From the NCBI RefSeq assembly GCF_000964005.1, contig NZ_JXYP01000036.1, positions 124,001 to 188,000 on the forward strand: a stretch of DNA of 64,000 nucleotides. Direction: 5' to 3'. The position numbers and the translations under genes were made by a program. Under the pieces are notes generated by a model. The model did no database searches. It saw only the letters and a program-made list of their open reading frames with translations, and had not been told where the DNA came from. Below are positions 29,324 through 51,293 of this stretch, piece after piece. Origin of the DNA: Williamsia herbipolensis (GTDB taxonomy: Bacteria; Actinomycetota; Actinomycetes; Mycobacteriales; Mycobacteriaceae). The stretch's first letter is position 1. Each line of letters starts with the position of its first letter.

Positions 29324-30418
29324 CTACGGCGCGAGCGATTCGCCGACCGGCGGTTTGGGCGATGTGGTCGTCGTGGAGGTCGTCGTCGTGGTGGTGGTCG
29401 TGGTGCTGGGCGGGGTCGTGGTGCGGGTGATGGTCCGCGGGGGCTGGGTGACGGTGACCGTGTCGCGCGGGGGCGGTGCCTGCTCGGCGGTCTCGGGGAC
29501 CTGTTCGACGGGTGCCTCGGTGGTCGTCGTCGTGGTCGAGGGACGTCGCGAGGTGCTGCTCGGCGTCGACGACGTCGTCGTCGGCGCGCTGACCGTCTCG
29601 CTGACGACGGCCGGTGTGGGCGCGTCGTCGCCACCGGAGAGCAGCACGACGGCCACCACGATCGCGGCGAGGACCGCGGCGGCGGCCGCCGCGGCGCCGA
29701 GGATGAGCCATCGGTTGCGCGCACCGGCGCCCGTGCCGCGGTTCCGTCCGTGCAGGGCGGCGCCGTGGGCCGCCGAGAAGGTCGGCTCGTCGGCGATCTG
29801 GACGGGCAGCTGCGTCTCGTACTCCAGCGCCGGACCGACACCGGCGAGCGATGCCCCCGGACCCACCACGAGCACACCGCGCCGACCGGCGTCGGTGGTC
29901 GGCAGCAGATCGAACGCCGCGGCGACGGTGGCCGCGCCGGTCGGTTCGGTGACCGGTTCGCGCTCGCCACCGGCCGGCAGTTGCACGGCCCCGACCACGC
30001 TGGCCGATTCGGTGTCGACCGCCGCGATGGACAGTTCGTTGAAGGGGATCGCGTTCTCGGCGAGGTCGATGACGACGACCACGCCGCGCTGATCGGATTG
30101 CGCCGCAGCAACATTGGCGAAGGCGAACGGGGTGTCGGTGATGGTGGTGCGGGCGTACCAGTCCGGGGCGCCCGCGGTGCCGCCGGTGATGGTGTTGTGC
30201 AGTGCGACCTGCATGCTGCGAAGCGCGCACGCGACGGTGATCGACTCGACCTCGAAGGGTGCGGTCTCGACGAGCTGCGAGATCGCGTCGAACACCGACT
30301 CGGGTGAGTCGTCGGCGAGATCGACCACGTTGCGGGCCAGCACGTTGCCGGTGGAGACCTCCATGACCACCGAGGCGATCTGGAGATCGGTGACCGAGAC
30401 TCCCAACACCTGAGCCAT
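29324..30418 (-). CDS. Single-pass membrane protein with a degenerate Hsp70/actin-like body and Thr-rich tail
   Basis: A 364-residue protein. Residues 1-224 show the order of an Hsp70/actin-like (ASKHA) fold: strand pair VLGVSVTDLQIASVVME, then VVVVIDLAENAIPFNELSIAAV, then GVLVVGPGASLAGVGPALEYETQLPVQIADEPTFSAAHGAA, which parallels the adenosine motif. The catalytic acidic residues of true ATPases are missing. One membrane segment (236-261, WLILGAAAAAAAVLAAIVVAVVLL) is followed by about 100 residues rich in Thr and Pro, probably outside the membrane. It may be a DUF7159-type protein. The layout copies the two Hsp70-like proteins at 39454 and 41482, so a common function with iniBAC is likely. 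Confidence 0.75.
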   Translation of the reverse strand: MAQVLGVSVTDLQIASVVMEVSTGNVLARNVVDLADDSPESVFDAISQLVETAPFEVESITVACALRSMQVALHNTITGGTAGAPDWYARTTITDTPFAFANVAAAQSDQRGVVVVIDLAENAIPFNELSIAAVDTESASVVGAVQLPAGGEREPVTEPTGAATVAAAFDLLPTTDAGRRGVLVVGPGASLAGVGPALEYETQLPVQIADEPTFSAAHGAALHGRNRGTGAGARNRWLILGAAAAAAAVLAAIVVAVVLLSGGDDAPTPAVVSETVSAPTTTSSTPSSTSRRPSTTTTTTEAPVEQVPETAEQAPPPRDTVTVTQPPRTITRTTTPPSTTTTTTTTTSTTTTSPKPPVGESLAP

Positions 30419-30545
30419 GACCGGGGTACCTCGTTCTCATCGGTGATCTGCCGTCGGTCCTGCGCCGACGCCGCTGTCCTGGCCGACCCTATCGTGGTGC
30501 CGTGTCGCGACCGCGGCACATCTGTGACGTCGTTACGCTCGGGTG

Positions 30546-31190
30546 ATGTCCGACGTCCGCGATGAGTCCGACCACCCGGGGTCGCCCGACGACCGTCGGC
30601 CCGCGATCCGCCCGTCGACCGCAGCGGGATCCCGCGGTGACACGTCGCGTGGGGCCGAGGCGCCTCGTCCGCAGCGGCCGCAGGTCGCCGTCACACCGAT
30701 GCGCGCCCCCGTCGACGACCGCCGACCGCGCGTGATCGACCTCGGCATCGTGGTGTGGGTGTTCACGCTCGTGGCGCTGGCGGCCACGGCCGCGCTCGTC
30801 GCCCTCGACCAGGGCGCCGCACGGTCCGAGCTGCGCCGATCGCTGGCCTCGGACAACCCCACGACGGCGCCGCGCGACATCGCCAACACCGTCGACATCG
30901 CGATGGTCGCCGCCGGCGGTGTCTGCGTGATCGTGCTGCTGCTGGTGATCTACGGATCGATCCGTCTGCGGGAACGCGTGATCGGCGGTCGCGGCACGCT
31001 CACGACGATGGGAGTCATCACCGTCGTCGGGTCGATCGCGTTCTGGACCGTGCTGTCGCCCGCGCGCGACGTGCTGAACCCGGCGGTGACGTTCCTGCCC
31101 TTCGTGGTGGCCGTCCTCGCGGCGGTCGCGACCGGACTCATGTTCACCGGCGACGTCACCCGCTGGTTGAAGGCCGCGCCGACACGCTGA
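30546..31190 (+). CDS. Four-segment membrane protein of unknown function
   Basis: A 214-residue protein. A polar, disordered N-terminal stretch of about 60 residues (rich in Asp, Arg and Pro) is followed by four membrane segments (VIDLGIVVWVFTLVALAAT; VAAGGVCVIVLLLVIYGSI; TMGVITVVGSIAFWTVL; LPFVVAVLAAVATGLMF). No motif or family recognised. ATG 30546 is chosen; a GTG immediately upstream is possible. It is divergent from the Thr-rich-tail gene (127-bp gap) and converges on iniC with a 21-bp gap, so it sits inside the ini region without being in its operon. Confidence 0.75.
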   Translation: MSDVRDESDHPGSPDDRRPAIRPSTAAGSRGDTSRGAEAPRPQRPQVAVTPMRAPVDDRRPRVIDLGIVVWVFTLVALAATAALVALDQGAARSELRRSLASDNPTTAPRDIANTVDIAMVAAGGVCVIVLLLVIYGSIRLRERVIGGRGTLTTMGVITVVGSIAFWTVLSPARDVLNPAVTFLPFVVAVLAAVATGLMFTGDVTRWLKAAPTR

Positions 31191-31211
31191 GCGACCCTCG
31201 CGGTCGGGGTC

Positions 31212-32681
31212 TCAGCGCTCTGTCGTCAGGGCGGCGAGCACGCCTTCGGCGCTGCGTGCGGCGACCCCGCACGCCAACGCGGTGGGCCGGTCGAGCAGGG
31301 GATGCGTCGCCCGCGCCCGCCACATCCGGATCGCGTCGAGTGCCGCGGTGCGCACGGCCTCGGTGCCCGCGTCGGGATCGAGACCGAGCCGCACCATCGG
31401 ATCGATGCCGACACCGCCGACGACGCGGGTCAGCTCCTCGAGGTGGTGTTCCGGCAGGTGGATGGCCCCGGCGCGTACCCGCCCGAGCAGACGCAGCTCG
31501 GTGAAGCCGTGGACGTCGGCGAGCATCCGGTGGACGTCGGCGGCGATGGCCGCGGACCCGGGGGCGTCGCTCTCGTCGAGGATGCGTCCGAGGGTGACCA
31601 GCGCGGTGTGGCTCTTGAGCTGGTCGGTGCGCTGACCGAACTGCACGTCGATGACCGCGCGGAGTTCGTCGAGCCCGCTGCGCTCGACGAGCTCGGCGGC
31701 CAGCGTGGGGCTGTCGGGACTGCCCAGTCGGATCAGGGTGACCGCCATGCGGACCCCGAACACCCCGAACCGGTCGAGGAGTGCCGCGCGGGTCTCCGCG
31801 ACGACGGGCAGGTCGGTGGTCGGCGCGGAGAACCGGTCGGCCGACAGCATCGCCAGGGCGAGGTCGTCGGGTGCGACCGACGCGAGCGCGACCAGGGCGC
31901 GGTACTCGACCTCACGCAGGGTGCGGGCGCCGAGCGCCAGCAGTCCGGCGACCGGCACGACCGCCTGACACAGTCCGGTCCGTTCGAGTTCGGAGGCGAA
32001 GCGGGCCGCGACGTCGCGCGCCGACATCATCGCGTCCATGCGGCCCGCACCGATCTCGTCGGCCCGGGACACGACACCCACCACGCCCAGCGGACCCGAT
32101 TCGCGGCCGATGGCCTGCCCGATGCGTCCCAGCATCGCGGTGTCGGTGTGGGTGAGCGAACGCAACAGGTAGACGACGGCGTCGGCGCCCGACTCCCCGT
32201 TGTCCGGGGTGAGCATGTCGACGGTCTGCGCCGAGATCTTCCGCGAGAGCGACGCGGTGCCCGGCGTGTCGATGATGGTGGTCGACTGCAGGGTGCGGGC
32301 GGGCCACGCGACGTCGAGGCGGTCGACGCGGTCGGCGGTGAGCGACCCGAAATCGAAGGTGAGCCGACCGGCGGGTCGCAGGACCGGGATGTCGATCCGG
32401 TGGTCACCGTCGTAGGTCGCGGTGACCGTCGGTGTGGTGCCGCGGCGGTACCAGGTGACCACGCGGGTGCACTCGGTCGCGTCGGTCGGTGCGATGTCCT
32501 GCCCGACGAGCGCGTTGAGCAGCGTCGACTTGCCCGCCTTCAGCGAGCCGGCCAGCGCCAGACGCAGCGGTTCGTCGAGGCGGTCGGCGCACTCGGTGAG
32601 CCTGCGATCGGCCCACGGGTCGTCGTGGTGGGCGGCGCGTGCGGCCTCGATGAGCGCCCGCGTCCGGTCGAGGGTGCTCAC
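31212..32681 (-). CDS. iniC: IniC, dynamin-like GTPase
   Basis: A 489-residue soluble GTPase of the dynamin superfamily. P-loop LAGSLKAGKSTLLNAL (about 43-58), G3 TTIIDTPGTASLSRK (near 138), and a G4-like VSRADEIG are present. The rest is helical (YRALVALASVAPDDLALAML and so on) without an evident membrane segment. In mycobacteria iniC is the last gene of the isoniazid-inducible iniBAC operon and IniC pairs with IniA. The GTG start at 32681 overlaps the iniA stop as GTGA, so the two are made together. It is divergent in sequence from IniA except around the GTPase motifs. Confidence 0.88.
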   Translation of the reverse strand: MSTLDRTRALIEAARAAHHDDPWADRRLTECADRLDEPLRLALAGSLKAGKSTLLNALVGQDIAPTDATECTRVVTWYRRGTTPTVTATYDGDHRIDIPVLRPAGRLTFDFGSLTADRVDRLDVAWPARTLQSTTIIDTPGTASLSRKISAQTVDMLTPDNGESGADAVVYLLRSLTHTDTAMLGRIGQAIGRESGPLGVVGVVSRADEIGAGRMDAMMSARDVAARFASELERTGLCQAVVPVAGLLALGARTLREVEYRALVALASVAPDDLALAMLSADRFSAPTTDLPVVAETRAALLDRFGVFGVRMAVTLIRLGSPDSPTLAAELVERSGLDELRAVIDVQFGQRTDQLKSHTALVTLGRILDESDAPGSAAIAADVHRMLADVHGFTELRLLGRVRAGAIHLPEHHLEELTRVVGGVGIDPMVRLGLDPDAGTEAVRTAALDAIRMWRARATHPLLDRPTALACGVAARSAEGVLAALTTER

Positions 32682-34654
32682 TGCTTCCGGTGCCGCGCGA
32701 TCGATCGCGTCGGGGTGGGCTGGGGTTCGCCCTGGCCGGCCGGTGCACGCTGGTCGGCCGGCTCGGACCGCTCGGCCGCGATCGCACCGGGCGCGGGTTC
32801 GAGTTGGTTCGCGACGGTGCGCAGGGCACCGACGGCGTGCAGTTGCGCCTCGAGTTCGGCCATCCGCGTGGTGCGGTGCGCACTCTGCGCCGAGGCGGCC
32901 TCCTGCGCCGACCGCAGCGAATCGTTGACCGATCGCGCGGTCTGGTCGGCGACCGCGGTGAAGTGGTCGCGCAACGCGCGCTGGGTGTGGCGCAGTCGGT
33001 CGCGCGACTCCTTGCCGACCTGGAAGCTGACGTCGTCGGTGAACTTGCCGATGGCCTGGCGAGCCTTGGCCCGCCGCCCCTCGATGCGACCCTCCTTCTC
33101 GTCGCGATAGGCCTTGGTGCCCAGCAGGACTCCGGCTCCGACCGAGATGGGGTTGATGAGGGTGAGCCCGACGACGGTGGTCAGCAGACCGAACATGAGC
33201 ACGCCGCCGTACGACCCGCGCATGCCGATGAGCATCTTCTGACCGATGCCGATACGGCCCGACTCGAGGTCGGAGAGTTCGGTGACGGTGTCGAAGACGC
33301 CGTCGAGATCGGAGATGTCGAGATCGGGCAGCACCACCTCGCCGGCGGCCGCGAAATGGTCGGCGACACGCTGCGCGAGCCACACCGTGCGCTGTTGCGC
33401 CCACACGAAGTTGTCGCCGACCGCGAGCCCGATCTGGTCGGCGAGCCAGTCGCTCAGCTGCGGCCAGTCCTTGCCGGGATCGCCTTCCTCGACGGCCTTC
33501 TCGGCCTCACGGGTCACCGCGCGCAACCGGTCGCGCAGGTCGTGGTCGATGTCGGAGGCGAGGTCGCCGATGCCGTCGGCGAGGGTCTGCTGCCACAGCG
33601 CCGAGGTGGTCTGCATCTGCGCGGCCGCGGCCTGCGCACGCTGTAGTCCGGCGACCGCGGCGGCCGCGGTCTCGGGATCGCGCAACGCGGCGAGCTCGCT
33701 GCCCAGGGTCAACGCCAGGTGCTCGGACACCGACCGCAGATCCGACGCGACCGAGGCCCGGGTCATGGTGTCGGCGTGGGCGACGACCCGCTCGCGCAGG
33801 TACGCGTAGAGATCCGCGAAACCCGATTCGGCGTTGAGGGCGTCGTCGTTGCGGCGCAACGCATGTGAACGCAGCACCGACGAGATCGACAGCAGTGGCA
33901 CGTCGATGCCCTCGCGATCGAGGTGCGCACGGTCGGCGTCGACGACGGCTCGCCAGTGCGGGTAGAGGTCGGTCTTGCTGATCAGGCACGCCACCGTGGG
34001 GCACAGCGCGGTGACCTGCCGCAGGAAGGCGACCTCGGGTTCGGTGAACTCGGTGCCGGCGTCGGAGAGCACGAACACCGCGTCGGCGGTCGGGATGAGA
34101 CCGAGCGTGGAGGCGGCATGGGGGTTGCCGTGGCCGCCGACCCCGGGGGTGTCGACGAGGACGAGTCCGTCGGCGAGCAACGCGCTCGGCGCGGCGATCT
34201 CGAGGCGCAGGACGGTACGACCGCCGGCGAGCGGGCTGCGCGGTGTGATCGCGTGGATGTCGGCCAGCGGGACGGGCACGCGGATCGGTTCGTCGGTCCC
34301 GCTGTCGAGGACCAGCTGCGCCGAGGGTTGCGCCGCGTACGACACCAGCGTCGGCACCGCGGTCGTCTCGTCGTCGCCGACCGAGCAGACGTCGACCCCG
34401 AGCAGTGAGTTCACGAACTGGCTCTTGCCCTGTTTGAGCGGTCCGACGACGACGATCCGCAGACGCGGGTCGGTGACACGGGTGCGGGCGCCGGCGAGGC
34501 GGTCGGCGAGGTCGTGGCGGTCGACACCGATCGCGATCTGCGCCATCTGCCCGAGGAGGTCGCCCAGCTGCTGCCCGGTGGACCCCGACGAGTTCTGTGG
34601 GGTCGGATCCTGCTGGGGGGATGAACCGTCGGATCCGGTCGGGATGACGTGCAT
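32678..34654 (-). CDS. iniA: IniA, membrane-active dynamin-like GTPase
   Basis: A 658-residue bacterial dynamin-like protein. The disordered Ser/Gln/Pro-rich N-terminus is followed by the GTPase domain: P-loop VVGPLKQGKSQF (about 69-80), switch region with DDETTAVPTLV, G3 LVDTPGVGG (168), G4 LISKTD (226). The long helical stalk holds a hydrophobic hairpin near 475-515 (SYGGVLMFGLLTTVVGLTLI, then PISVGAGVLLG) that should insert into membrane, as known for IniA, which remodels membranes and helps tolerance to wall drugs. It is the middle gene of iniB-iniA-iniC. 208 bp separates it from iniB and contains a hairpin. Confidence 0.92.
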   Translation of the reverse strand: MHVIPTGSDGSSPQQDPTPQNSSGSTGQQLGDLLGQMAQIAIGVDRHDLADRLAGARTRVTDPRLRIVVVGPLKQGKSQFVNSLLGVDVCSVGDDETTAVPTLVSYAAQPSAQLVLDSGTDEPIRVPVPLADIHAITPRSPLAGGRTVLRLEIAAPSALLADGLVLVDTPGVGGHGNPHAASTLGLIPTADAVFVLSDAGTEFTEPEVAFLRQVTALCPTVACLISKTDLYPHWRAVVDADRAHLDREGIDVPLLSISSVLRSHALRRNDDALNAESGFADLYAYLRERVVAHADTMTRASVASDLRSVSEHLALTLGSELAALRDPETAAAAVAGLQRAQAAAAQMQTTSALWQQTLADGIGDLASDIDHDLRDRLRAVTREAEKAVEEGDPGKDWPQLSDWLADQIGLAVGDNFVWAQQRTVWLAQRVADHFAAAGEVVLPDLDISDLDGVFDTVTELSDLESGRIGIGQKMLIGMRGSYGGVLMFGLLTTVVGLTLINPISVGAGVLLGTKAYRDEKEGRIEGRRAKARQAIGKFTDDVSFQVGKESRDRLRHTQRALRDHFTAVADQTARSVNDSLRSAQEAASAQSAHRTTRMAELEAQLHAVGALRTVANQLEPAPGAIAAERSEPADQRAPAGQGEPQPTPTRSIARHRKQ

Positions 34655-34759
34655 GGGGAGTCGACGACCTCAAACTGTCGTGTCCACCGGCGGTGCCCGA
34701 CCGCCGCATGGCCTGTCTGATCTGGGTGTTCTGTGTGGTTACCGGGTCCGCGAACCGCA

Positions 34760-34789
34760 TCGGCCCCGCACGCAAGCGTACGGGGCCGA
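34760..34789 (-). terminator. Hairpin between iniB and iniA (attenuator-like)
   Basis: TCGGCCCCG and CGGGGCCGA pair perfectly, with inner ACGC/GCGT pairs around a two-base loop. There is no T run after it on the minus strand. It lies after the iniB stop and about 105 bp before iniA, so it may partly stop transcription or stabilise the 3' end of an iniB message. Confidence 0.55.
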
Positions 34790-34862
34790 CGCTGTCACAC
34801 GGTCGTGGGCGGCAGTTCGGGGCAACCGCCCACCGTCGGTGACGAGCTCGCGGTGGTCTCGG

Positions 34863-37800
34863 TCAGGGCAGCAGGCCGTGTCCGAGGTCCAGATGGTGGT
34901 TCTGTGTGGCGGTGGCGTCGGTGTGCGACGCGGTGTCGGCGGTGCCGCCCAGGCCGGTCGACAGGCCGTCGGTGAGGCCGCCGGTCAGACCCGAGTCGTG
35001 CAGGGCCGACCCGTGCGCGCTGCCATCGGCCGCGGTGGACGACGTGGTCGCCGCGCCGAAGGTGTGGTCGGCGTCGAGACCCGACCAACCCTGGTGCGCG
35101 GTGAGACCGCTCGTGGCGCCGCCCGTGAGGCCCGCCGCGCCGCCGCCGGCGAGGCCGGCCGTGGTGCCGGTGAGACCGTGCAGCGCGCCGTCGACACCAC
35201 CGGTGCCGGCGGCCGCGCCGAACGCGTCGCCGGTGAGCCCCGTGGTCCCCGCCGTCGAGCCCGCGGAGAGCGAGTGCACGGAGTCGAGCGCGCCCTGCAG
35301 GTTCGCGGTGGCGTCACCGCCGAGCGCGCTCTGGACGCCCGACCCGAGGCCCAGCCCGCCGGCGAGCGACGTGCCCGCCCCGGCGAGACCGTGCAGACCG
35401 GAGGTGGCCCCGGCGGCACCACCGGCGTCGAGCGCGGTGTTCGCCGCTCCGCCGATGGCGCCGTCGAGTCCTGCGGCCAGGTTCGGCGTGGGGTCCGATC
35501 CTCCGAGGCCGAGTCCGAGTCCGGTGGCGAGTGATCCGGCGAGGCCGGTGCCGAGCGACGCGGCGCCGGCGAGGCCGGCACCGGGGTCGGCGAGTCCGGC
35601 GACCTGGCCGCCGAGGTTGCCGCCGAGGTTGCCGCCGAGATCGCCACCCGCGGCGAGGGCCGTGGTGAACGCGGTGCCGAGGCCACCCGCGGCGTTCCCG
35701 TCCAGCGACAGGGCGCCGCCGAACGCCGAGCCGAGCACGCTGCCGGCGTCGAGTCCGCCACCGAGGCCGGCGAGGAGGTCGGTGCCCAGGCCGCCGGCGA
35801 GCGAGCCGCCGAGCGACCCCCCGAGAGATCCGTCGAACGCCGAACCGACGACGGCGCCGAGCGACGCCCCGAGGGCGGCAGCACCGCCGCCACCGAGTCC
35901 GAGGGCCGCACCGAGCGCGCCACCGAGGTCGGCGGTGCCGCCGAGCACACCGGCGAGATCGACGGAGCCACCGAGCGCGGTGGTGAACGCCGCACCGAGC
36001 TGCGACACGAGCGCCGGGTCGACACCGAGTCCGGCGGTGAGACCGCCGGCGAGCACCGAACCGACGTCGAGACCCAGCGACGGATCGATCGCACCCGCGG
36101 CCACGGCCGCGGTGACCGCGCCACCGAGGGCGGTGCCCAGTCCGGCGGCCGCGGATCCGCCGGCGCCGAGGGCGGTGGCGAGCGATCCGGACAGGTCGGC
36201 GGCGAGGCCGCCCGACACGAGTGCGGTGAGGTCGGTGGTCGCGAGGCCGCCGGCACCGAGCGCCGCGACGAGATCGGTCCCCAGGTCCGCGGCCGCGCCG
36301 AGGCCCAGGGCGCCGGTCGCGTCGAGTCCGACGGCGCCGCCGAGCACGGTCGACAGGGCGCTGCCGAGGTCGAGACCCCCGGCCAGGAGACCCGAGACCT
36401 GCGCGCCGAGCGCGCCGGAGAGCGCGGTGCCCAGGACGGCCCCGAACGATGCGCCGAGGTCGGCACCGAGGGCGCCACCGGCGCCGAGCGCGGTGCCGAG
36501 GATCGCCGACAGGTCGGTGGTGCCGGCGAGAACGCCGGCCAGGTCGACGCCGCCGCCGAGGACCGCGTCGAGCGCTCCTCCGAGCTGGCCGATCACGAGG
36601 CCGTCGACGCCGAGTGCGGCGCCGAGGCCTGCGGCGAGCGTCCCACCCACACCGAGTGCGAGCGAGGGGTCGACGGCCGCGAGACCGCCGAGGCCGGCCG
36701 CTGCGGTCAGCACCGATCCGAGTGATGCCCCCAGGCCTGCACCGAGCGTTCCGCCGGCCGACAGCGCGGCACCCAGGGCCCCGGAGAGCTGGGCGGCGAT
36801 GTCGCCACCGAGGACCGCCGCGAGGTCGGTCGACAGGACGCCGCCGGCGCCGAGGGCCGCGGCGAGAGCGCCGCCGAGATCGACACCTCCCCCGAGACCC
36901 AGTGCGCCACCGAGGACGGTCGACAGGGCGGCGTCGAGTCCGACACCACCGGCGAGAAGGCCGGAGAGCTGGGCGCCGAGGACGCCGGCGAGTCCGGTGC
37001 CGAGCACCGCACCGAGGGTCGCGCCGAGGTCGGCCGCTGCGGCGCCACCGAGACCGACGGCGCCGCCGAGCACCGCTGCGAGGTCGGTGGTTCCCGCGAG
37101 CACCGCGGCCACGTCGACGCCCGCGCCGAGCAGGGCGTCGAGGGCGCCGCCGAGCTGGCCGACGAGGAGTCCGTCGAGCCCCAGTGCCGCGCCGAGCTGG
37201 CCGGCGAGTGCGGCGCCGGCGGACAGTGCGACGCCGCCGTCGAGCAGACCGCCGACGGTGACGAGGCCACCCAGTGCGCCACCGAGCGCGGCGCCGAGAT
37301 CGGCGGCGACCGCACCACCGGCGCCGAGGGTGGCTCCGAGCGCACCCGAGAGCTGCGCCGCGAGACCGGTGTCGAGCAATGCCGCGAGGTCACCGGTGAG
37401 CAGACCGCCGGCGCCGAGGGCCGCGGCGAGCGAGCCACCGAGATCGAGGGCACCGGAGAGGTTCAGCGCCGAGGACAGATTGAGGGCCGACGACAGGTCG
37501 AGGGCACCGCCGAGGACGGTCGAGAGGGCCGCACCGAGACCGACACCGCCGGCGAGCAGGCCGGACAGCTGGGCGCCGAGGGCGCCGGAGAGTCCGGCCG
37601 CGCCACCGAGGGCTCCGCCGAGCACAGCGCCGAGCGCGAGACCGAGGTTCGCCGCGACCGCGCCACCGGCGTCGAGAACACCCGACAGGGCCGTCCCGAG
37701 CGCCACACCGAGGTTTCCGCCGCCGGCGAGGATCGCGGCGAGGTCGATGCCGTCGGCCGCGGCGAGCGCGGCGTCGAGGGATGCGGCCAGGGCGGCCGTT

Positions 37801-39209
37801 ATGCCACCACCGAGACCGAGTGCGCCGGTGAGCGAGGCGGCCAGGGCGCCGCCGGCTCCGAGGACGGTGCCGAGGTCGAGCAGTCCGGTCACGTCGGTGA
37901 CCGCTCCGAGCGCCGCGCCGAGCGCGAGACCGAGGTCGGCGCCGATCGCACCGCCGGCACCGAGGGCCGCGCCGAGCGCGCCCTGCAGCGAGGCCGTGAG
38001 CCCGCCGACGAGCCCGGCGACGACCGAGGCGTCGAGCAATCCCGTCAGAGCACCGCCGAGGCCTGCGGTGACGCCCAGGGCCGCTCCGAGAGCGCCGCCG
38101 AGCTGTGCCACGACACCGCCGAGCAGGTTCGCACCGAGGCCGAGTCCGCCACCGAGGACCGCGGCCAGGGAGCCCGCGACCCCGAGTCCTGCCGACAACG
38201 CACCGGCGAGATCGGCCGCGAGCGCGCCGCCGACGCCGACGGCACCGCCGAGCGCCGCACCGAGGGCTGCGCCGACGTTGGCGGCCAGCGATCCGCCGAC
38301 GGCCAGGGCGCCGCCGAGCGCGGCACCGACGGTCGCCGTGCCGCCGGCGACCACGACACCGGCCGCGCCGAGCGCCGCGTTGATCGTTCCGGCCAGCTGC
38401 ACACCGAGACCGGCAGCCAGGCCGAGTCCACCGGTGAAGACCCCGGCGATGGTGGCGCCGATGTTCAGGAGGCCGTTCGCGTCGAACACGGCGCCCAGAC
38501 CGCCACCGACGGCCAGGGCCGCGTCGACGAGGGCACCGAGTGCGACACCGAGTGCGGCCGCGATGTCGCCGCCGACGGTGAGTGCGCCGGCGAGAGCGGC
38601 GGCCAGCGCGGCCGACAGCTGCGTGCCGATGGCCAGGTCGCCCAGGGCCAGGCTGCCCAGCGAGAGGCTCCCGAGGCCCAGGTCGATGAGGTTGTTCGCC
38701 GAGATGAGGTTGCTCAGGTCGATGCCGCCGAGCGCGATCCCGCCGAGATCGATGCTGCCCAGTGCGAGCGACCCGAAGTCGATGCCGCCCAGGTTCAGTC
38801 CGCCCAGACCGCCGAAGTCGATGCTGCCGAAGTTGATGCCGCCGAGGTTGACCCCACCGAGGTTGACCCCACCGAGGTTGACATTGCCCAGTCCGACGGC
38901 GACCCCACCGAGGCCACCGAGGGCTGCCCCGCCCAGACCGCCGACGCCGATCCCACCGAGACCGCCGCCCAGACCACCGAGCCCGCCCGCGGCGGGGGTT
39001 CCCGCACCGACGATGGACGCCAGTCGCGATCCGCCCGGGAACAGACCCGACTCGGCGACCGCCGGCGCCGCGGCGACGATGTCGGCGGGGCAGAGATCGC
39101 CCAGGCCGGCGGTGTCGAGGGCACACTGCGGGTCACTGAGGTATGCCGCGGCGGCCTTGTCGTCGCGCAGCAGGTTCAGGATGAAGTCGAGAACGGCGTT
39201 GGTGGGCAT
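34863..39209 (-). CDS. iniB: Giant IniB, Ala/Gly-rich repeat protein
   Basis: A 1448-residue protein, about three times the M. tuberculosis IniB. Residues 1-60 form the IniB N-terminal domain (AVLDFILNLLRDDKAAAAYL, then AGLGDLCPADIVAAAPAVA), similar to the mycobacterial LIDYILSLFR domain. Residues 109-168 are pentapeptide-like. Most of the rest is Ala/Gly/Leu-rich and built on long modules of roughly 190-200 residues (LAGTTDL, then LGA[QL]SGLLAGG, then ALSTVLGG). The final 60 residues turn to Thr/His/Ser. No signal peptide is seen. A wall-associated structural role is presumed for IniB but unproven. The gene heads the leftward iniBAC operon, divergent from the Hsp70-like pair. Confidence 0.88.
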   Translation of the reverse strand: MPTNAVLDFILNLLRDDKAAAAYLSDPQCALDTAGLGDLCPADIVAAAPAVAESGLFPGGSRLASIVGAGTPAAGGLGGLGGGLGGIGVGGLGGAALGGLGGVAVGLGNVNLGGVNLGGVNLGGINFGSIDFGGLGGLNLGGIDFGSLALGSIDLGGIALGGIDLSNLISANNLIDLGLGSLSLGSLALGDLAIGTQLSAALAAALAGALTVGGDIAAALGVALGALVDAALAVGGGLGAVFDANGLLNIGATIAGVFTGGLGLAAGLGVQLAGTINAALGAAGVVVAGGTATVGAALGGALAVGGSLAANVGAALGAALGGAVGVGGALAADLAGALSAGLGVAGSLAAVLGGGLGLGANLLGGVVAQLGGALGAALGVTAGLGGALTGLLDASVVAGLVGGLTASLQGALGAALGAGGAIGADLGLALGAALGAVTDVTGLLDLGTVLGAGGALAASLTGALGLGGGITAALAASLDAALAAADGIDLAAILAGGGNLGVALGTALSGVLDAGGAVAANLGLALGAVLGGALGGAAGLSGALGAQLSGLLAGGVGLGAALSTVLGGALDLSSALNLSSALNLSGALDLGGSLAAALGAGGLLTGDLAALLDTGLAAQLSGALGATLGAGGAVAADLGAALGGALGGLVTVGGLLDGGVALSAGAALAGQLGAALGLDGLLVGQLGGALDALLGAGVDVAAVLAGTTDLAAVLGGAVGLGGAAAADLGATLGAVLGTGLAGVLGAQLSGLLAGGVGLDAALSTVLGGALGLGGGVDLGGALAAALGAGGVLSTDLAAVLGGDIAAQLSGALGAALSAGGTLGAGLGASLGSVLTAAAGLGGLAAVDPSLALGVGGTLAAGLGAALGVDGLVIGQLGGALDAVLGGGVDLAGVLAGTTDLSAILGTALGAGGALGADLGASFGAVLGTALSGALGAQVSGLLAGGLDLGSALSTVLGGAVGLDATGALGLGAAADLGTDLVAALGAGGLATTDLTALVSGGLAADLSGSLATALGAGGSAAAGLGTALGGAVTAAVAAGAIDPSLGLDVGSVLAGGLTAGLGVDPALVSQLGAAFTTALGGSVDLAGVLGGTADLGGALGAALGLGGGGAAALGASLGAVVGSAFDGSLGGSLGGSLAGGLGTDLLAGLGGGLDAGSVLGSAFGGALSLDGNAAGGLGTAFTTALAAGGDLGGNLGGNLGGQVAGLADPGAGLAGAASLGTGLAGSLATGLGLGLGGSDPTPNLAAGLDGAIGGAANTALDAGGAAGATSGLHGLAGAGTSLAGGLGLGSGVQSALGGDATANLQGALDSVHSLSAGSTAGTTGLTGDAFGAAAGTGGVDGALHGLTGTTAGLAGGGAAGLTGGATSGLTAHQGWSGLDADHTFGAATTSSTAADGSAHGSALHDSGLTGGLTDGLSTGLGGTADTASHTDATATQNHHLDLGHGLLP
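35926..37560 (-). repeat. Long-period repeats inside iniB (about 570-600 bp)
   Basis: The segment coding AGTTDL/GGTADL recurs near 37081, 36511 and 35926 (spacings 570 and 585 bp). The segment coding ALSTVLGG recurs near 37511, 36911 and 36341 (600 and 570 bp). The spacings are multiples of three and give modules of 190-200 residues, each made of shorter 10-20-residue Ala/Gly/Leu stretches. Confidence 0.75.
38705..38885 (-). repeat. Pentapeptide-like repeat segment of iniB
   Basis: Residues about 109-168 read in fives: NLGGV, NLGGV, NLGGI, NFGSI, DFGGL, then NLGGI, DFGSL, ALGSI, DLGGI, ALGGI, DLSNL. This is the (A/N/D)-(L/F)-x-x-(hydrophobic) rule of pentapeptide-repeat beta-helices. At DNA level a 15-bp unit is repeated three times in tandem near 38849-38885. 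Confidence 0.75.
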
Positions 39210-39301
39210 CGGGGCTCCTGGATCACTCGAGGTGGCGCGGTCGGCGCAACCTGACTGCTGACCACGCTAGGGGCGAGGGCACCCGGGCCCAACGGGGTGA
39301 A

Positions 39302-39428
39302 GCCCCCTGTCTCGTCGGGGGCATTAGGGGATCCCCCCGCGACCATCTCGAGGGGCCCGTCATGGGGTAACGCGGTGGGCCCCGATGGCGACAAGCGGGA
39401 GAAGAACCGGTGGGGTCACGACCCCACC
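39302..39428. promoter_or_regulatory. Divergent iniB / Hsp70-like control region with nested inverted repeats
   Basis: The 244-bp gap holds four dyads: GCCCCC/GGGGGC (39302-39322), GGGGATCCCC (39327-39336), GGGGCCC with GGGCCCC 18 bases later (39352-39383), and GGTGGGGTC-AC-GACCCCACC (39409-39428). The last one ends 25 bp before the Hsp70-like start. They are candidates for binding by the LuxR-type regulator or for RNA structure. I could not place clear -35/-10 boxes. Confidence 0.5.
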
Positions 39429-39453
39429 CCAGCGACGAACGGGAGTCGACCTC

Positions 39454-41292
39454 ATGGCCGGAGGCCACCACAATTCCACTGCCGGAGGCCACCACACGCC
39501 CGCTGCGGCAGCAGACACCCGCCGACCGTCGGGCCTGGGCATGAAGATCGGCGCCTCCATGTCGGTGGCTGTCTCGTCCACACCGTCGGGCACCTACGAC
39601 GCGCTCGTGCGGCCCACCGCACTGGAGGTGGCGCCCGGTCGCGAACCGGTGCTGGCATCGGCACGGCAGGACGCCGGCGCCGAGGGCTCGGCGCGACTGT
39701 CCGGCTTCACCGAGCGCGTGGGCGACCCGGTGGAACTCGTCGCCGACGACGGCCGACGCTTCAGCGGCGAGGACCTCTACGCGACGGCGCTGGCGTGCCT
39801 GGCCGCGGAGTCCCGCTCGGACGCCACCAGTGTCGTCGTGACCTGCCCGAACGGATGGCAGCCCTACACCGTCGACATGGTGCGCGCCGCAGCCGACGCC
39901 CACGGCCTCTCCGACGTCACCTTCGTGCCCGAGGCCATCGCGAGCGTCACGGCGGCGCAGGCCACCGGCCGTGAGCTGCCGTCCGACGTCGTTGTCGTGT
40001 TCGACCTCGGCGGGTCGGCACTCGACATCACCGTCGTCCGCACCGGCGACGAGTCGCAGATCCTGGGCCGACCGACACGGTCGGAGGAGATCAGCGGCGA
40101 CTCGTTCGACCAGCTGCTGCTGGCCCACGTGCTGCAGTCGGTCGACGCGGCCGACTCGATCGATCCGTTCGAACCCGCGACGGTCGAGGCGCTGACCGCA
40201 CTGCGCCGGCGCTGCACGATCGCGAAGGAGACGTTGTCGGTCGACACCGACACCACCCTCACCGTCGACCTGCCCGGGCTGCACACCGAGACCCGACTGG
40301 TGCGCTCGGAGATCGAGTCGCTGCTGCACGACCAGATGTTCGCAGCGGTGTCGTTGCTGCGTGACGCGGTCACCGCCTCGGGCCACAGCCTGCGCGACGT
40401 CGGCGCCCTGCTGCTCACCGGCGGCGGCGCGGCGATGCCGCTGGTGACCGAGATGCTCTCCGGTGTCCTGCGGATCCCGGTGGTCGTCGATGCCGACCCC
40501 GCCACCACCTCGGCGTTCGGTGCCGCCATCCTGGCCGCCGAGATCGACGCCGCACCCGGGGCCCTCGACGCCATGCCCGCCAACGCCGCCGCGGCCGCAG
40601 CCGAGGTCGCAGGCGCCACGTCGAACGCCTCCGCCTCCGCCTCCGCCGAGACGGTCGTCTCCCGCACGGTCTCCCCCGCCCCGCGGACGCCGGTCGCCGC
40701 GACGTCGACATCGGGTCGTACCCGTCGGCTCGCGATCATCGGTGGGGTCGCGGTGGCGATCGCGCTCATCACCGCGGGCGGGTTGTCGGTCGGTACCGCG
40801 CTGAGTTCGTCGGAGAGCCCGGCCGCGACAACCGCGACCTCGGCCGCGACACCCGCGGCGTCGTCGCCGGCGGCTCCCTCGGCGGCTGCGCGATCCGGTG
40901 CGCCCGCCTCCGCGGCCCGGACGTCCGCCGCGAACGACGCCAGGTCGAGCGGCTCCTCGGACCGGACCTCGGGCGGCTCCACCTCCGGTGGCACCGGTTC
41001 GGGTTCCACGGGCTCCGGCTCGGGCGGGACGCAGTCCGGCGGCGCCTCGAACGGCGGTTCCACGTCCGGCGGGACCTCGAACGGATCGGGCGGGGGCACG
41101 AGCGGCGGTTCTACCGGGGGCGGCGCGACGAGCGGCGGATCGACCGGTGGATCGGGCTCGACGGGTGGCGGTTCTGGGTCGGGCGACACCGGTTCGGGTG
41201 GCGACACCGTGCCCGAGCAGACCTTCAACCCCATCCCCACCGTTCCCGCACTGCCGACGGTGCCCGGCCTCGGCGGCCTGTTCGGCCGCTGA
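39454..41292 (+). CDS. Membrane-anchored Hsp70-like protein 1, Gly/Ser-rich outer tail
   Basis: A 612-residue protein. A His-rich start (AGGHH twice) precedes an Hsp70/actin-like domain (about 29-365): phosphate-1-like strand GMKIGASMSVAVSS, connect motif VPEAIASVTAA, phosphate-2 VVVFDLGGSALDITVV, adenosine-type motif GALLLTGGGAAMPLVTEML. The first catalytic Asp of Hsp70 is Lys here and the DLGGGT threonine is Ala, so ATP hydrolysis may be impaired. There is no peptide-binding domain. A membrane segment at about 426-446 leads to a Gly/Ser/Thr-rich tail ending in PTVPGLGGLFGR. GGGAG lies before ATG 39454. It is divergent from iniB and followed by a paralogue. Confidence 0.85.
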   Translation: MAGGHHNSTAGGHHTPAAAADTRRPSGLGMKIGASMSVAVSSTPSGTYDALVRPTALEVAPGREPVLASARQDAGAEGSARLSGFTERVGDPVELVADDGRRFSGEDLYATALACLAAESRSDATSVVVTCPNGWQPYTVDMVRAAADAHGLSDVTFVPEAIASVTAAQATGRELPSDVVVVFDLGGSALDITVVRTGDESQILGRPTRSEEISGDSFDQLLLAHVLQSVDAADSIDPFEPATVEALTALRRRCTIAKETLSVDTDTTLTVDLPGLHTETRLVRSEIESLLHDQMFAAVSLLRDAVTASGHSLRDVGALLLTGGGAAMPLVTEMLSGVLRIPVVVDADPATTSAFGAAILAAEIDAAPGALDAMPANAAAAAAEVAGATSNASASASAETVVSRTVSPAPRTPVAATSTSGRTRRLAIIGGVAVAIALITAGGLSVGTALSSSESPAATTATSAATPAASSPAAPSAAARSGAPASAARTSAANDARSSGSSDRTSGGSTSGGTGSGSTGSGSGGTQSGGASNGGSTSGGTSNGSGGGTSGGSTGGGATSGGSTGGSGSTGGGSGSGDTGSGGDTVPEQTFNPIPTVPALPTVPGLGGLFGR

Positions 41293-41481
41293 GCGGCCCA
41301 CAGCGCCAGGGCCTGCGATGACCGTGGATCGAGACCACAGCCACCGCGGCGAACTCGCCGCAATCGGTGGCGAGCGGTAACGGAAGGGTGTTCGATGGCG
41401 ATGAGGAAGTTGACCGTGGAGTCACGACCGGCCGGGGGGTCGTCGTCGATACGTGCTCCCCAATCGGACGGAGCGACCCCC

Positions 41482-43056
41482 ATGGCTGCTGGACTCGGTG
41501 TGAAGATCGGTGCGACGACCTCGGTCGCGGTGTCGGCGACACCGACGGGTTCCTACGACGCCCTGGTGCGACCGACACCTGCGGACGCGGCCTACGCGAC
41601 CGCGATCGCCGATCTGGCCGACGAGTCGGGCTCCACCTCGAACGACGTCGTCGTCGCCGGACCCAACGACTGGCAGCAGTCGGAGAACGACGAACTGCGT
41701 GACGCCGTCACAGGGCACGGTCTCTCCGACGTCCGCGTCGTCCCCGAGGCCCTGGCCAGCCTCGCCGCCGCCACCGCCGCGGGCGGCGAACTCGATCACG
41801 TCTCCGACGGTTCTCTGGTCGTCGTCTACGACCTCGGTGCCTCCGCGCTCGACATCGCCGTCGTCGAGACGGGCGAGAACCCCCAGATCGTCGGTACGCC
41901 CGTGCGATCGCACGAGATCAGCGGCGACGCGATCGATCAGCTCGTCGTCGACCACGTGCTCGCGGCATCCGGCGCGAACGCAGTCGACCCGTCGGATCCC
42001 ACGGCCGCCGCCGCGATGGCCGGACTCCGCGCCGACGCCACTGCGGCGAAGGAAGCGCTGTCGACGGAGACCGACGCAACCATCGCCGTCGACCTGCCCG
42101 GCGCCGACTCGCAGGTGACCCTGAGCCGCTCCGAGCTCGAATCGCTCGTGCAGAACCAGATGTTCGCGTCGATGACGATGCTGCGCGAGGCGGTCACCGC
42201 GTCCGGACACCGCCTCCGAGACGTGGGGGCGTTGCTCCTCACGGGAGGCGGGGCCGCGATTCCCGTCGTCGCCGAGATGCTCTCGGGCGTTCTCCGCGTG
42301 CCGGTGGTCGTCGATTCCGACCCCGCCACCACCGCCGCCTACGGCGCGGCGATCCTCGCGTCGGGGTCGGGGGCCGCCGCGGTGCCCGCCACGGCGGCCG
42401 CTGCCGCCGGCGGCGCCGCGATGGCGAGCCGTATCCACACCGTGGCCGCGGCGACACCGGCTCCCAGCGCCGTCGACGAGATCGAGAACTCCGGCCGTCG
42501 GAAGCGGTTGGCGCTCATCGGTGCGTTCGTCACCGTCGCCCTGCTCTCCGCGGGTGGACTCGCGGTCGCCGCCTCGTTGAATTCGGGGTCCGATCCGTCC
42601 GATGCCGCCGTCGCCACCGCGATCAACCCGCTGGCCGATGCCAGCTCGTCGACCTCGGCCGCCGCGACCGCCGGTGTGCCCACCATCGTCGAATCGCGGA
42701 TCACCACCACGCCGTCGGCCGGCCGGACCGATGGAGGCGCGCAGGCTCAAGCCCAAGCCCAGGCCCAGGCACAGGCACAGGCACAAGCCCAGGCGCAGGC
42801 TCGGGCTCAGGCGCAAGCCCAGGCGCAGGCTCAGGCGCGTGGCGGCAATCCCGCATCGGCCAACACCAACGCGGCTCCAGACAATTCCGGGTCGCAGGCA
42901 GGCGCTCCGACCGCGGGCGCAACATCTTCAGCTGCTCCCGCACCATTCGTCCCACCGGTCGTTCAGCCCGCGGTCATACCCCCTGGCAACGGCCCTCCGC
43001 TGACAGACCTCATACCGAAGCTGCCTAGCCTGCCCGGGATCCCCGGTCTGCCCTGA
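41482..43056 (+). CDS. Membrane-anchored Hsp70-like protein 2, Ala-Gln repeat outer tail
   Basis: A 524-residue paralogue of the preceding protein, closely similar through the ATPase-like domain (GVKIGATTSVAVSA, VVVYDLGASALDIAVV, GALLLTGGGAAIPVVAEML) but about 65 residues shorter near the N-terminus. Again the first catalytic Asp is Lys. A single membrane segment (about 341-366, KRLALIGAFVTVALLSAGGL) is followed by an outer tail with 17 Ala-Gln/Arg dipeptides (420-453) and a Pro-rich end (IPKLPSLPGIPGLP). ATG 41482 has GGAG nine bases upstream. It is 189 bp after protein 1 and 13 bp before the LuxR gene, so the three are probably one transcript. Confidence 0.85.
   Translation: MAAGLGVKIGATTSVAVSATPTGSYDALVRPTPADAAYATAIADLADESGSTSNDVVVAGPNDWQQSENDELRDAVTGHGLSDVRVVPEALASLAAATAAGGELDHVSDGSLVVVYDLGASALDIAVVETGENPQIVGTPVRSHEISGDAIDQLVVDHVLAASGANAVDPSDPTAAAAMAGLRADATAAKEALSTETDATIAVDLPGADSQVTLSRSELESLVQNQMFASMTMLREAVTASGHRLRDVGALLLTGGGAAIPVVAEMLSGVLRVPVVVDSDPATTAAYGAAILASGSGAAAVPATAAAAAGGAAMASRIHTVAAATPAPSAVDEIENSGRRKRLALIGAFVTVALLSAGGLAVAASLNSGSDPSDAAVATAINPLADASSSTSAAATAGVPTIVESRITTTPSAGRTDGGAQAQAQAQAQAQAQAQAQAQARAQAQAQAQAQARGGNPASANTNAAPDNSGSQAGAPTAGATSSAAPAPFVPPVVQPAVIPPGNGPPLTDLIPKLPSLPGIPGLP
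42739..42840 (+). repeat. Ala-Gln dipeptide tract in the coding sequence
   Basis: Seventeen consecutive Ala-X codon pairs, fifteen Ala-Gln and two Ala-Arg, occupy 102 bp. Codons vary (gcg/gct/gcc/gca, cag/caa), so selection on the protein rather than pure slippage is suggested. The tract lies in the predicted outer tail. Confidence 0.9.
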
Positions 43057-43069
43057 CCCATTCTCGTCG

Positions 43070-45595
43070 ATGACCGATCACGCCGTGGGCGGCGTCGCCC
43101 TCGCGGGAATGCCCGATGCGCATACCCTGCTGGCGGCACTCGCCGCCGACGAGCGTCGCGGGCACGTCGGCATCAGCGCGACAGCCGGGGGCGGGAAGAC
43201 TCTTCTGCTGTCGTCGATCGCCGACTGTCACCGCAGCGCCGGCACGGTGGTGATCACCTCCGTGCCCGCGGCCCCGGACGCCGGGACCGCACTGGTGATC
43301 GATGACGCCCACGATCTCGACGACACGACGCTCGCGCGACTGGCCTCGATCGCCGCGACCGGTGAGGTCGCCGTCGCCGTCGGGGCCGAGCCCCGCGATC
43401 ATCGACCACTCCTGCGAGATGTGTTCGCCGCGATCGGTTCTCACGGTCGTGTCGTCACCCTGCCCCCCGTCACCGCGACCGGGGTCGTCGAACGATCCGG
43501 ACGCCGACTGTCACCTGCGGTGGCCACGGCGATCGCGCGGATGAGCGGCGGGAACCGTGCCGCGATCGACGCCGCGATCTCCGCGGTGACCACACAGGAC
43601 GATGTCGACTCCGGGGCCCGATCGACGATCGGTGTCGCAGCCGAGGCCATCTCGGCGTATCACCATCGCGCACTGCGTCGCCTCGACCGCGCCACACTGC
43701 GCGTGCTGATCATCGCCGCCGCCGGTTCCACTCTCGACCCCGACGCCGTCGCCCAGACCTGCGACCTCGACATCGCGGCCGCGACGTCGGCCATCGACGC
43801 TGCTCGGGGATCGGGCTTCCTCGGCGACTCCGACACGTTTCTCGCCGATGCCGATCCCGCGCTCACCGCCGTGGTCGGCGCGCACCAGATCGCGACCACC
43901 CGCACCGCCCTGGTAGGGGTGCAACTGGCGCACAACGCACTTCCCCTCGAGCGGGCACTGTCGGCGGCGGGCGACGGGATGGTCGACCCCGCACTGGCCG
44001 AGACCCTCATCGACCATGCCCGGGCCGCCCGCGGGCACCGGGCGGTCACGATCTGGTCGGCGGCACGCGCGGCCGGCGCCGACCGGTCGGTCTGCGATCG
44101 GCCGCTGGCCGCCGCGGCACTGGCGGCCGATGACCTCGACACGGCCGACCGCATCGCCGACGAAGCGCTCGGCTCCGAGGACCGGGCCGCGGTCGCGACC
44201 GGCGTCCGCATCGCGGCCTCGGTCGCCGCCCGTCGCGGAACCTACTCTCGCGCTGCGCAACTCTTCCGCTGGTTGGGGTCCGACAGGGCCGGGACCGACG
44301 CCGCCGCCGGGGTCGTCGCCGTCATCGCCGCGGGTGACCGGACGTCGGCCGAGGAGTTCCTCGCCGTCGCCGAACACGCGCCGCCCACGACCGACAACAC
44401 CGCCGCCGCGCAACTCGCCGCCGGCCTCCTGGCGTCGGTCACGGCTACACCCGCGACCGCGGTCGGCGCGGTGTTGCGCTCGGTGTCGGCCGCCACCGAC
44501 CACCACCGCATCGAACCCGAGTCCGCCGCCGTGGTCGCCATCCTGTTGATGCTGCACACCGGGGACCTCGCCGGCGCGGCATCGGTGCTCGCCCGGCGCA
44601 GTACTCCGGCGGACGGTTCCGGCGACGCCCGCACAGACGCCCGACTGCTCCTCCTCGACGCGTGGACCGCCATGACCGCAGGCGATCTCACCCGCGCGGC
44701 CGCGCTGGCGTCGTCGGTGACGGTGGGGTGCCACCGCGAACGCCTCCTGATGCACGCTCTGCGTGCCGGTATCGCCCGCCGCCACGGCGATTCGGGGGCA
44801 CTGGCCGGCGCGTGGCGTGACGCGCAGCCGGCAGTGGCAGAGGCCGAGGCCGACCTGTTCGCGCTCCTGCCACTGGGCGAGCTGCGGTTGGCCGCCGTGC
44901 GTTGCGGCGCCGCCGACCGCATCGCGCACCTCGCCGCCGAGGTCGACCGACTGCTCGCCGCGCTCGGCGATCCACCGGTCTGGGCCGCGGCGTGGCACTG
45001 GTACGGCGTCCAGGCGGCGATCCTCGCCGGGACCCCGGATGCGTTGGTGCCGCACGCCAGGGCACTCGGTACGGCCGCCGATGCGCACCCCTACGCCGCG
45101 GTTCTGGCGCGGGCGGGGCGGGTGTGGCTGCGCGTGCTGCAGGGTGACGATGCCGATCCCCCGTTGTCGGTCGACGAGATCGACCTCGCCGCACACGATC
45201 TGCACCGCATCGGCCACGGTTTCGACGGCGCCCGACTCGCCGCGGAGGGGGCACTGCGTGTGGACGACACCCGCTCGGCCACCTCCCTGCTACAGACGGC
45301 GCGCACCATCGGCGGAGCACCGTCAGCCGGTGCGTCGCCCGGTCCCGAGGCCCCCGCGGTCCCGGCACCCGGCGCGACCGGTGTCGCCACCCTCTCCGAA
45401 CGCGAGGCCGAGATCGCGGAGAAGCTCGTGCTGGGCCTCACGTATCGCGAGATCGGGGCCGCGCTGTTCATCTCGGCGAAGACCGTCGAGCACCACGTCG
45501 CACGCATCCGACGTCGGCTCGGGTCGACCTCGCGTTCGGAGCTGCTGTCGACACTGCGCGCAGCCGGCTACGGTGCCGCCGCATCGCAACCCTGA
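43070..45595 (+). CDS. iniR: Large LuxR-family ATPase regulator, IniR-like
   Basis: An 841-residue LAL-type regulator. N-terminal ATPase: Walker A SATAGGGKTLLL (about 36-47), Walker B TALVIDDAHDL (about 73-83). A long all-helical TPR-like middle follows, then a C-terminal LuxR helix-turn-helix (TLSEREAEIAEKLVLGLTYREIGAALFISAKTVEHHVARIRRRLG). In M. tuberculosis a protein of this kind and size, Rv0339c (IniR), sits beside iniBAC and controls it; position and size agree here, so the symbol is by synteny and architecture. It begins 13 bp after the second Hsp70-like gene, which suggests co-transcription, a link not present in the mycobacterial arrangement as I know it. Confidence 0.83.
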   Translation: MTDHAVGGVALAGMPDAHTLLAALAADERRGHVGISATAGGGKTLLLSSIADCHRSAGTVVITSVPAAPDAGTALVIDDAHDLDDTTLARLASIAATGEVAVAVGAEPRDHRPLLRDVFAAIGSHGRVVTLPPVTATGVVERSGRRLSPAVATAIARMSGGNRAAIDAAISAVTTQDDVDSGARSTIGVAAEAISAYHHRALRRLDRATLRVLIIAAAGSTLDPDAVAQTCDLDIAAATSAIDAARGSGFLGDSDTFLADADPALTAVVGAHQIATTRTALVGVQLAHNALPLERALSAAGDGMVDPALAETLIDHARAARGHRAVTIWSAARAAGADRSVCDRPLAAAALAADDLDTADRIADEALGSEDRAAVATGVRIAASVAARRGTYSRAAQLFRWLGSDRAGTDAAAGVVAVIAAGDRTSAEEFLAVAEHAPPTTDNTAAAQLAAGLLASVTATPATAVGAVLRSVSAATDHHRIEPESAAVVAILLMLHTGDLAGAASVLARRSTPADGSGDARTDARLLLLDAWTAMTAGDLTRAAALASSVTVGCHRERLLMHALRAGIARRHGDSGALAGAWRDAQPAVAEAEADLFALLPLGELRLAAVRCGAADRIAHLAAEVDRLLAALGDPPVWAAAWHWYGVQAAILAGTPDALVPHARALGTAADAHPYAAVLARAGRVWLRVLQGDDADPPLSVDEIDLAAHDLHRIGHGFDGARLAAEGALRVDDTRSATSLLQTARTIGGAPSAGASPGPEAPAVPAPGATGVATLSEREAEIAEKLVLGLTYREIGAALFISAKTVEHHVARIRRRLGSTSRSELLSTLRAAGYGAAASQP

Positions 45596-51187: not shown

Positions 51188-51293
51188 GTTTGTTGCCTCC
51201 TTGACGATGCCGCGCGGGGCGCGGCGTTGCTTTCTCCGTTTGCCGAAACCGGGATGAGCGTGCACCCGGATGTCCGTGAACCTCAGCGCGGAT

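Follow-up and report, generated by a model that had tools for sequence, protein, structure and literature searches.

A 64,000-nucleotide stretch of the Williamsia herbipolensis genome (contig NZ_JXYP01000036.1, positions 124,001 to 188,000; referred to here as the window) carries the iniBAC genes beside genes of membrane-anchored Hsp70-like proteins and an IniR-type regulator, and raises the question of what a derivative of Hsp70 does within this system. The common layout of iniBAC loci is divergent, with iniB, iniA, and iniC read in one direction and a two-gene operon, composed of the gene of the Hsp70-like protein (pseudo-Hsp70) followed by iniR, read in the other. The membrane pseudo-Hsp70 is a real, widespread, and, so far as searches show, almost unstudied part of a known system. 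IniR (Rv0339c, MMAR_0612) functions in Mycobacterium marinum and Mycobacterium tuberculosis according to the available part of the report by Boot et al. (Boot 2017, PMC5760070), in which one sentence places a dnaK-like gene beside iniR of Mycobacterium smegmatis. The original prediction, made from the window alone, that the Hsp70-like gene lies outside the known system was thus half right. A search of the literature by title and start of abstract, which did not cover subscription papers, returned no paper on an Hsp70-like partner of IniR or on an IniR box.

The comparison of gene order took in 151 genomes from the GTDB family to which W. herbipolensis belongs; IniR scored 150 bits or more in 78 of them. 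Seventy-nine regions around ini genes were fetched, making 80 with the window; the iniR genes of two genomes (G048 and G098), located less than 1.1 kb from the contig start, were left out. An Hsp70-like gene is positioned directly upstream of iniR and on the same strand in 72 of the 80 regions, from 18 genera. Among the eight remaining regions, three have iniR at a contig end (L109, L110, and L113) and two hold no iniR (L111 and L112). The true exceptions are L039 from genome G085 and L107 and L114, both from G031, so that the adjacency on which the original prediction depended is retained in 72 of 75 testable loci. The start domain of iniB is found across a gap of 200–422 bp, measured between the matched domains, in 69 of the 72 loci, the other three being L068, L076, and L078. 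One control region serves iniBAC and the Hsp70-like/iniR operon, as had been proposed. The first possible start codon of iniR is located between −8 and +31 nucleotides from the stop codon of the Hsp70-like gene in 52 of the 72 loci, including 16 in which the stop and start overlap by 4 nucleotides. In the other 20 loci the start is not assignable, since the open frame of iniR continues farther upstream; the distance does not exceed 40 nucleotides in any locus.

A second set, of named contigs, was gathered using the Hsp70-like protein as the query, and the best 80 of 110 relatives gave 79 loci. Fifty-eight of them contain an iniR that scores 150 bits or more, and all 58 have the upstream Hsp70-like gene and a diverging iniB, a count that reflects the choice of the Hsp70-like protein as the query. 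The 21 loci outside the 58 comprise two contig ends (L196 and L200), 14 from Nocardia, four from Pseudonocardiales, and one from a metagenome-assembled genome of Mycobacterium. The whole cluster is present in Amycolatopsis suaedae (L219). Since the gene order recurs in 18 genera and in the named set, the arrangement is not due to chance. It is extremely unlikely that the Hsp70-like gene is a neutral hitchhiker, an old neighbor retained through operon structure without a functional link to the system. The lack of excess co-evolution with IniR and the displacement of the gene from its usual site in part of the genus g29, both described below, would fit such a history, but the order persists in one Amycolatopsis and across 18 genera of the family, and the gene junctions, wherever these can be assigned, are short or overlap.

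Proteins of the window were scanned with Pfam and NCBI (NF) models, and bit scores were compared with the cut-off of each model. The product of hspA (39385..41292, plus strand, with the start possibly at 39454) matches PF00012 with 75.2 bits (cut-off 20.6) and contains one membrane segment and a Gly/Ser-rich tail. The Hsp70-like protein has the nucleotide-binding fold of Hsp70. It differs from the nucleotide-binding domain of Hsp70/DnaK by the loss of the phosphate-1 aspartate, kept in one of 73 relatives, and of the catalytic lysine, kept in none of the 73, by the absence of the substrate-binding domain, and by the addition of a membrane segment and a wall tail. K and T of hspA are aligned at the catalytic positions of the phosphate-1 aspartate and Lys70, the latter given in Escherichia coli numbering. 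In contrast to these losses, the phosphate-2 aspartate is retained in 72 of the 73 relatives; the glycines of the nucleotide pocket are kept as well. Of the 599 positions of the PF00012 profile, the match extends as far as position 373; a linker with a median length of 47 residues, the membrane segment, and the low-complexity tail follow. A hydrophobic segment after the fold, with more arginines and lysines before it than after it, was identified from hydropathy and charge in 71 of 71 relatives. The predicted topology places the pseudo-Hsp70 in the inner membrane, with the Hsp70-like domain in the cytoplasm and the tail of approximately 176 residues in the wall. The pseudo-Hsp70 probably does not hydrolyze ATP efficiently. 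The description of these proteins as degenerate, membrane-fixed, and devoid of a substrate domain is supported by the catalytic losses, the uniform predicted topology, and the end of the profile match. The Hsp70 fold and the proximity of dnaJ (47376–48572) and dnaK (about 49334–51265), to the right of the ini cluster in the window, could point to a chaperone tethered to the membrane, with IniB or IniR as the protein that it folds or delivers; however, the missing substrate-binding domain and the loss of both catalytic residues make this very unlikely. A likeness of the tail to a piece of IniB was noticed by eye only.

A de novo motif search in 56 dereplicated regions between iniB and the Hsp70-like gene found TTAGGGGATnnnCCC, and boxes were counted in 69 regions that are mutually related, so that the counts are not independent. 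The predicted IniR box of the window, TTAGGGGAT (39324..39332, plus strand), is the sole WTAGGGGAW in the window, and WTAGGGGATNNNCC is found once in the 4.74 Mb genome, at position 39324 of the window. WTAGGGGAW is present in 63 of the 69 regions, oriented toward iniR in 61, and occurs 104 times in total on both strands of the 1.46 Mb of fetched loci, which include the 69 regions. The core TAGGGG occurs 139 times in the forward and 23 times in the reverse direction in the 69 regions, compared to a forward mean of 7.8 and maximum of 15 in mononucleotide shuffles. At least two forward copies are present in 58 of the 69 regions, most commonly spaced by 18 bp (31 pairs) or 9 bp (13 pairs). The window is an outlier in spacing, with two TAGGGG copies 57 bp apart, one of which overlaps a candidate −10 element. 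In the named set, some genomes of which are also in the first set, the box was found in 56 of the 58 loci. In a second set of regions, 44 Hsp70-type genes were read, of which one is a dnaK and two begin at the edge of a contig; only the ini copy of genome G029 has a box in the 400 bp before it. Genome-wide, scanning for an 18-bp composite box gave 70 matches in the 151 genomes, 38 of them at an ini locus, and 19 of 23 matches to an 8–9-bp composite are located beside an iniB-type gene. The patterns read backward were commoner in both scans, and such scans are therefore informative by location and not by rarity. In two g29 genomes a second iniB-like gene, separate from the ini locus, has a TAGGGG box pair in front (contig C1 of G029 near 1107677 and contig C23 of G112 near 476395).

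Two further conserved elements were identified in the control region. A candidate −10 element of iniB, TAGCGT, is located on the minus strand (39264..39269), and the corresponding A[CT]GCTA occurs in 38 of the 69 regions, compared to a shuffled mean of 2.8 and maximum of 8. The element CAACGGGG (39290..39297, plus strand), near the presumed −35 of iniB, occurs in 26 regions and AACGGG in 58 of the 69, counts for which no shuffled control was made. The WTAGGGGAW boxes, located between iniB and the Hsp70-like gene and frequently arranged as direct repeats, are predicted operators to which IniR may bind. PMC5760070 contains none of the terms "binding site", "consensus", or "direct repeat", and has "motif" once, in the title of a reference.

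Since the boxes are located in the shared region, both directions may be targets of IniR, and the pseudo-Hsp70 could be an effector that is induced together with iniBAC and helps IniA and IniC to reseal or brace the membrane and wall. We consider this unlikely, although several observations fit it. Two g29 regions (L036 and L037) contain reverse-strand TAGGGG pairs between iniR and a downstream Hsp70-like gene, distances among Hsp70-like proteins track those of IniC when IniR and IniA are accounted for (partial correlation 0.56), and three named loci (L213, L215, and L221) keep iniA, iniC, and the Hsp70-like gene where iniR was not found. Against an effector role, the gene is coupled to iniR and not to iniBAC in most loci, and relatives away from ini adjoin other envelope genes.

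MalT, the regulator of the E. coli maltose regulon, has direct-repeat GGGGA boxes and is held at the membrane by MalK. IniR is similar to MalT in its layout of an ATPase joined to a LuxR-type domain, its predicted GGGGA-type direct-repeat boxes, and the proposed sequestration at the membrane. The putative partner of IniR differs from MalK in being a pseudo-Hsp70 instead of an ABC ATPase, and its contact with IniR is a proposed one. MalT domain III is named in the available part of PMC5760070. We tentatively propose, with a probability of about 0.4, that the pseudo-Hsp70 is the membrane holder of IniR in the divergent ini system, from which IniR is freed upon damage to activate iniBAC. The Hsp70-like domain would bind IniR, a MalT-like STAND ATPase (signal transduction ATPase with numerous domains), and keep the resting regulator at the membrane. 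Damage sensed through the tail, or a change of nucleotide in the Hsp70-like domain, may release IniR, which could then bind the boxes and switch on both iniBAC and its own operon. We infer the contact with IniR, its sequestration or gating, the sensing by the tail, and the binding of the boxes by IniR. A holding role is favored because the membrane-bound ATPase fold is silenced and is encoded together with a STAND activator, a combination that fits a holder and not a folding machine. It is also favored because IniR of M. marinum or M. tuberculosis, when overproduced in M. smegmatis, switched on an iniBAC reporter without antibiotic, as stated in the available part of PMC5760070.

The same gene order and topology are shared by the originally proposed logic, in which the pseudo-Hsp70 would serve as a positive sensor, with a tail that is acted on by wall damage and a nucleotide-binding domain that then activates IniR. 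The retained glycines of the nucleotide pocket and the response of IniR to ATP and trehalose, stated in the part of PMC13413693 that was available, are compatible with such a sensor. The sensor is nevertheless improbable, given that overproduced IniR induces the reporter without antibiotic and that IniR works in species described, in the available text of PMC5760070, without the upstream copy. Of the originally proposed logic as a whole, the adjacency, predicted topology, and shared control region stand, and the sensing and signaling steps are putative; co-evolution of the Hsp70-like protein with IniR beyond shared descent was not found.

Several observations weigh against the proposed holding of IniR by the pseudo-Hsp70. 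In the mirror-tree test, the Hsp70-like protein and IniR have a partial correlation of −0.04 once IniA and IniC are accounted for, a value reached by 362 of 500 permutations over 62 loci. Of the three named loci in which iniA and iniC are near the Hsp70-like gene and iniR was not found, L213 has a gene of an ATP-grasp protein after the Hsp70-like gene, and the contig of L215 ends soon after it. A Gly-Val end of the tail is present in 42 of 71 relatives and was seen in none of the g29 members, and thus no one ligand of the tail is evident. For M. marinum and M. tuberculosis, the available text of PMC5760070 names just iniB* between iniR and iniBAC. In the genus g29, taken as Mycobacterium, IniR was matched at an E-value of 1e-60 or better in 61 of 88 genomes, and an Hsp70-like gene within 1.5 kb upstream of iniR is among the matches listed for 41 of these 61 loci. 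Nine of the 20 loci without a listed upstream copy have an Hsp70-like gene 7.0–10.2 kb away, which in L039 is just beyond iniC. Five have an iniR that is broken or starts at a contig end (G157, G175, G178, G187, and G188), and the other iniR piece of G188 does adjoin an Hsp70-like gene. For six, no Hsp70-like gene is among the matches listed. Judged from these matches, the upstream copy is lost or moved in part of g29. Together with the functioning of IniR in M. marinum and M. tuberculosis, the 20 loci indicate that the Hsp70-like gene is not universally needed. The g29 regions L036–L041 contain TAGGGG pairs before iniB and again before iniB*, the Hsp70-like gene, or iniR, and L039, without the upstream Hsp70-like gene, has kept both sets of pairs. 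Amycolatopsis does not have mycolic acids. A signal specific to the mycomembrane was considered and is weakened by the presence of the whole cluster in A. suaedae, which also counts against the proposal.

The pair of membrane Hsp70-like genes at the control region, noted in the window from the start, is present. The second gene, hspB (41395..43056, plus strand, with the start possibly at 41482; PF00012 84.9 bits, cut-off 20.6), is a duplicate of hspA without the GFxxRVGDPV block, and the alignment gap covers approximately 60 residues, including RVGDPV, which is near-invariant in other relatives. The six readable Williamsia congeners have one Hsp70-like copy each at the locus, and hspA, hspB, and six other Williamsia sequences form one clade with a support of 0.984 in a FastTree phylogeny of 144 sequences. 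The pair is therefore a lineage-specific duplication within the Williamsia clade, and a tandem pair as a general feature was rejected, since, of the regions read, only that of the window's own genome has one. In 18 of the 80 loci, iniR is followed within 3 kb by another Hsp70-like gene, in most cases a shorter one, and a more sensitive profile detected such a gene within 2 kb after iniR in 36 of the 58 named loci. Thirteen of the 18 form their own clade with a support of 0.976. Such a downstream gene fits the sentence on the dnaK-like gene of M. smegmatis in the available part of Boot et al. In L071 (genome G143), iniR is followed by a second, shorter IniR-like gene and then by an Hsp70-like gene.

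Membrane Hsp70-like genes of the family are also found away from the ini loci. They share the Hsp70-like domain and include examples with a hydrophobic stretch and a Pro/Thr-rich tail, but they differ in belonging mostly to other clades, in being located in several cases by polysaccharide genes, and in having no box in any region read off the ini loci. A general pairing of these genes with an IniR-like regulator was rejected: in 40 regions (L115–L154), the only matches to IniR fell in L146 and L147, and these two regions take in the ini loci of G085 and G029. Genes near the Hsp70-like gene encode YibE/F proteins in 14 of the 40 regions, aminotransferases in 12, UDP-glucose dehydrogenases in 8, Wzz-type proteins in 4, and sugar transferases in 4, counted by sequence clusters of which one member each was scanned, after rough gene calling by third-codon-position GC content (GC3). 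In eight regions (L116, L117, L118, L128, L129, L135, L140, and L141), paralogous membrane Hsp70-like genes adjoin genes of UDP-glucose dehydrogenase, Wzz-type, sugar transferase, or YibE/F proteins, hinting at a link of the paralogs to polysaccharide synthesis. A separate Hsp70 domain in the W. herbipolensis genome is located past the middle of a 1152-residue protein (contig C49, 177043–177834, L115) and belongs to a separate clade.

The placement of iniB, iniA, and iniC leftward and of two Hsp70-like genes and the regulator rightward agrees with the family scans. IniB (34863..39209, minus strand) is a Gly/Ala-rich protein of 1448 residues whose N-terminal domain matches NF038175 with 63 bits (cut-off 40). 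In L068, L078, and L076, from genomes G024, G050, and G067 of genus g24, a frame of approximately 3,700–5,100 codons has a weak IniB start domain. IniA (32678..34654, minus strand) is a dynamin-like GTPase (Dynamin_N 57.6 bits, cut-off 27), and its stop codon is overlapped by the GTG start of iniC (31212..32681, minus strand), which was left out of the Pfam scan and is called dynamin-like from its translation; its counterparts, searched for with IniC as the query, adjoin iniA across loci. The regulator (43070..45595, plus strand) contains an N-terminal ATPase with a Walker A-like GGGKT, identified by eye in the translation, and a C-terminal LuxR helix-turn-helix (GerE 50 bits). It matches NF038181 over residues 16–831 with 502.6 bits, below the equivalog cut-off of 750 bits, which is passed in just six of the 151 family genomes, all from g29. 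The spacings of 189 and 13 bp given originally for hspA, hspB, and iniR hold if hspB starts at 41482, but a start at the first ATG, 41395, shortens the first gap to 102 bp. Among the matches listed, the closest named relatives of the window Hsp70-like protein are from Williamsia maris, Williamsia deligens, and Williamsia serinedens. An ini locus similar to that of Williamsia muralis is present on a contig recorded under Kitasatospora arboriphila NRRL B-24581 (L165), and the record looks misassigned or contaminated. The locus agrees with the mycobacterial iniBAC/IniR system in the N-terminal domain of IniB, the pair of dynamin-like GTPases, the STAND/LuxR regulator, and the divergent arrangement; it differs in the long iniB, in an IniR score under the equivalog cut-off, and in the membrane pseudo-Hsp70 gene between iniB and iniR, present here and in most relatives read.

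Beyond iniC, where a third Hsp70-like protein had been described, hspC (29324..30418, minus strand) does encode a small single-pass protein, and its N-terminal half resembles a reduced actin/Hsp70 fold, but the likeness to Hsp70 is weak. The MreB_Mbl match of 25.1 bits is below the cut-off of 27, and hhalign aligned only the last 65 residues with the Hsp70-like family (probability 93.8). An Hsp70-like identity of hspC is possible. Of the 79 fetched regions, 11 contain a relative of hspC on the far side of iniC, and some of the 79 end short of that place; among the regions read, such relatives occur in the genus Williamsia, four g11 genomes, and one g17 genome.

The iniBAC promoter is the classic reporter of isoniazid and ethambutol, and the locus bears on the route by which wall damage reaches it. 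It is conceivable, though doubtful, that the silenced Hsp70 domain acts as a transmembrane gate for a STAND factor, with a wall-spanning tether that holds IniR until the envelope is damaged. If true, this would be a new kind of envelope-stress signaling beside two-component systems, anti-sigma factors, and Ser/Thr kinases, and the system is of a new kind only if the gating step holds. Such a gate would have gone unseen because the work on IniR was done in M. tuberculosis and M. marinum, for which the available text of PMC5760070 describes no copy of the upstream gene. The locus offers two handles on the route. One is the conserved partner encoded in the iniR operon, and the other is a short operator, predicted from the boxes, whose strict form occurs once in this genome. 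The boxes would help to define the IniR regulon, including the second iniB-like genes.

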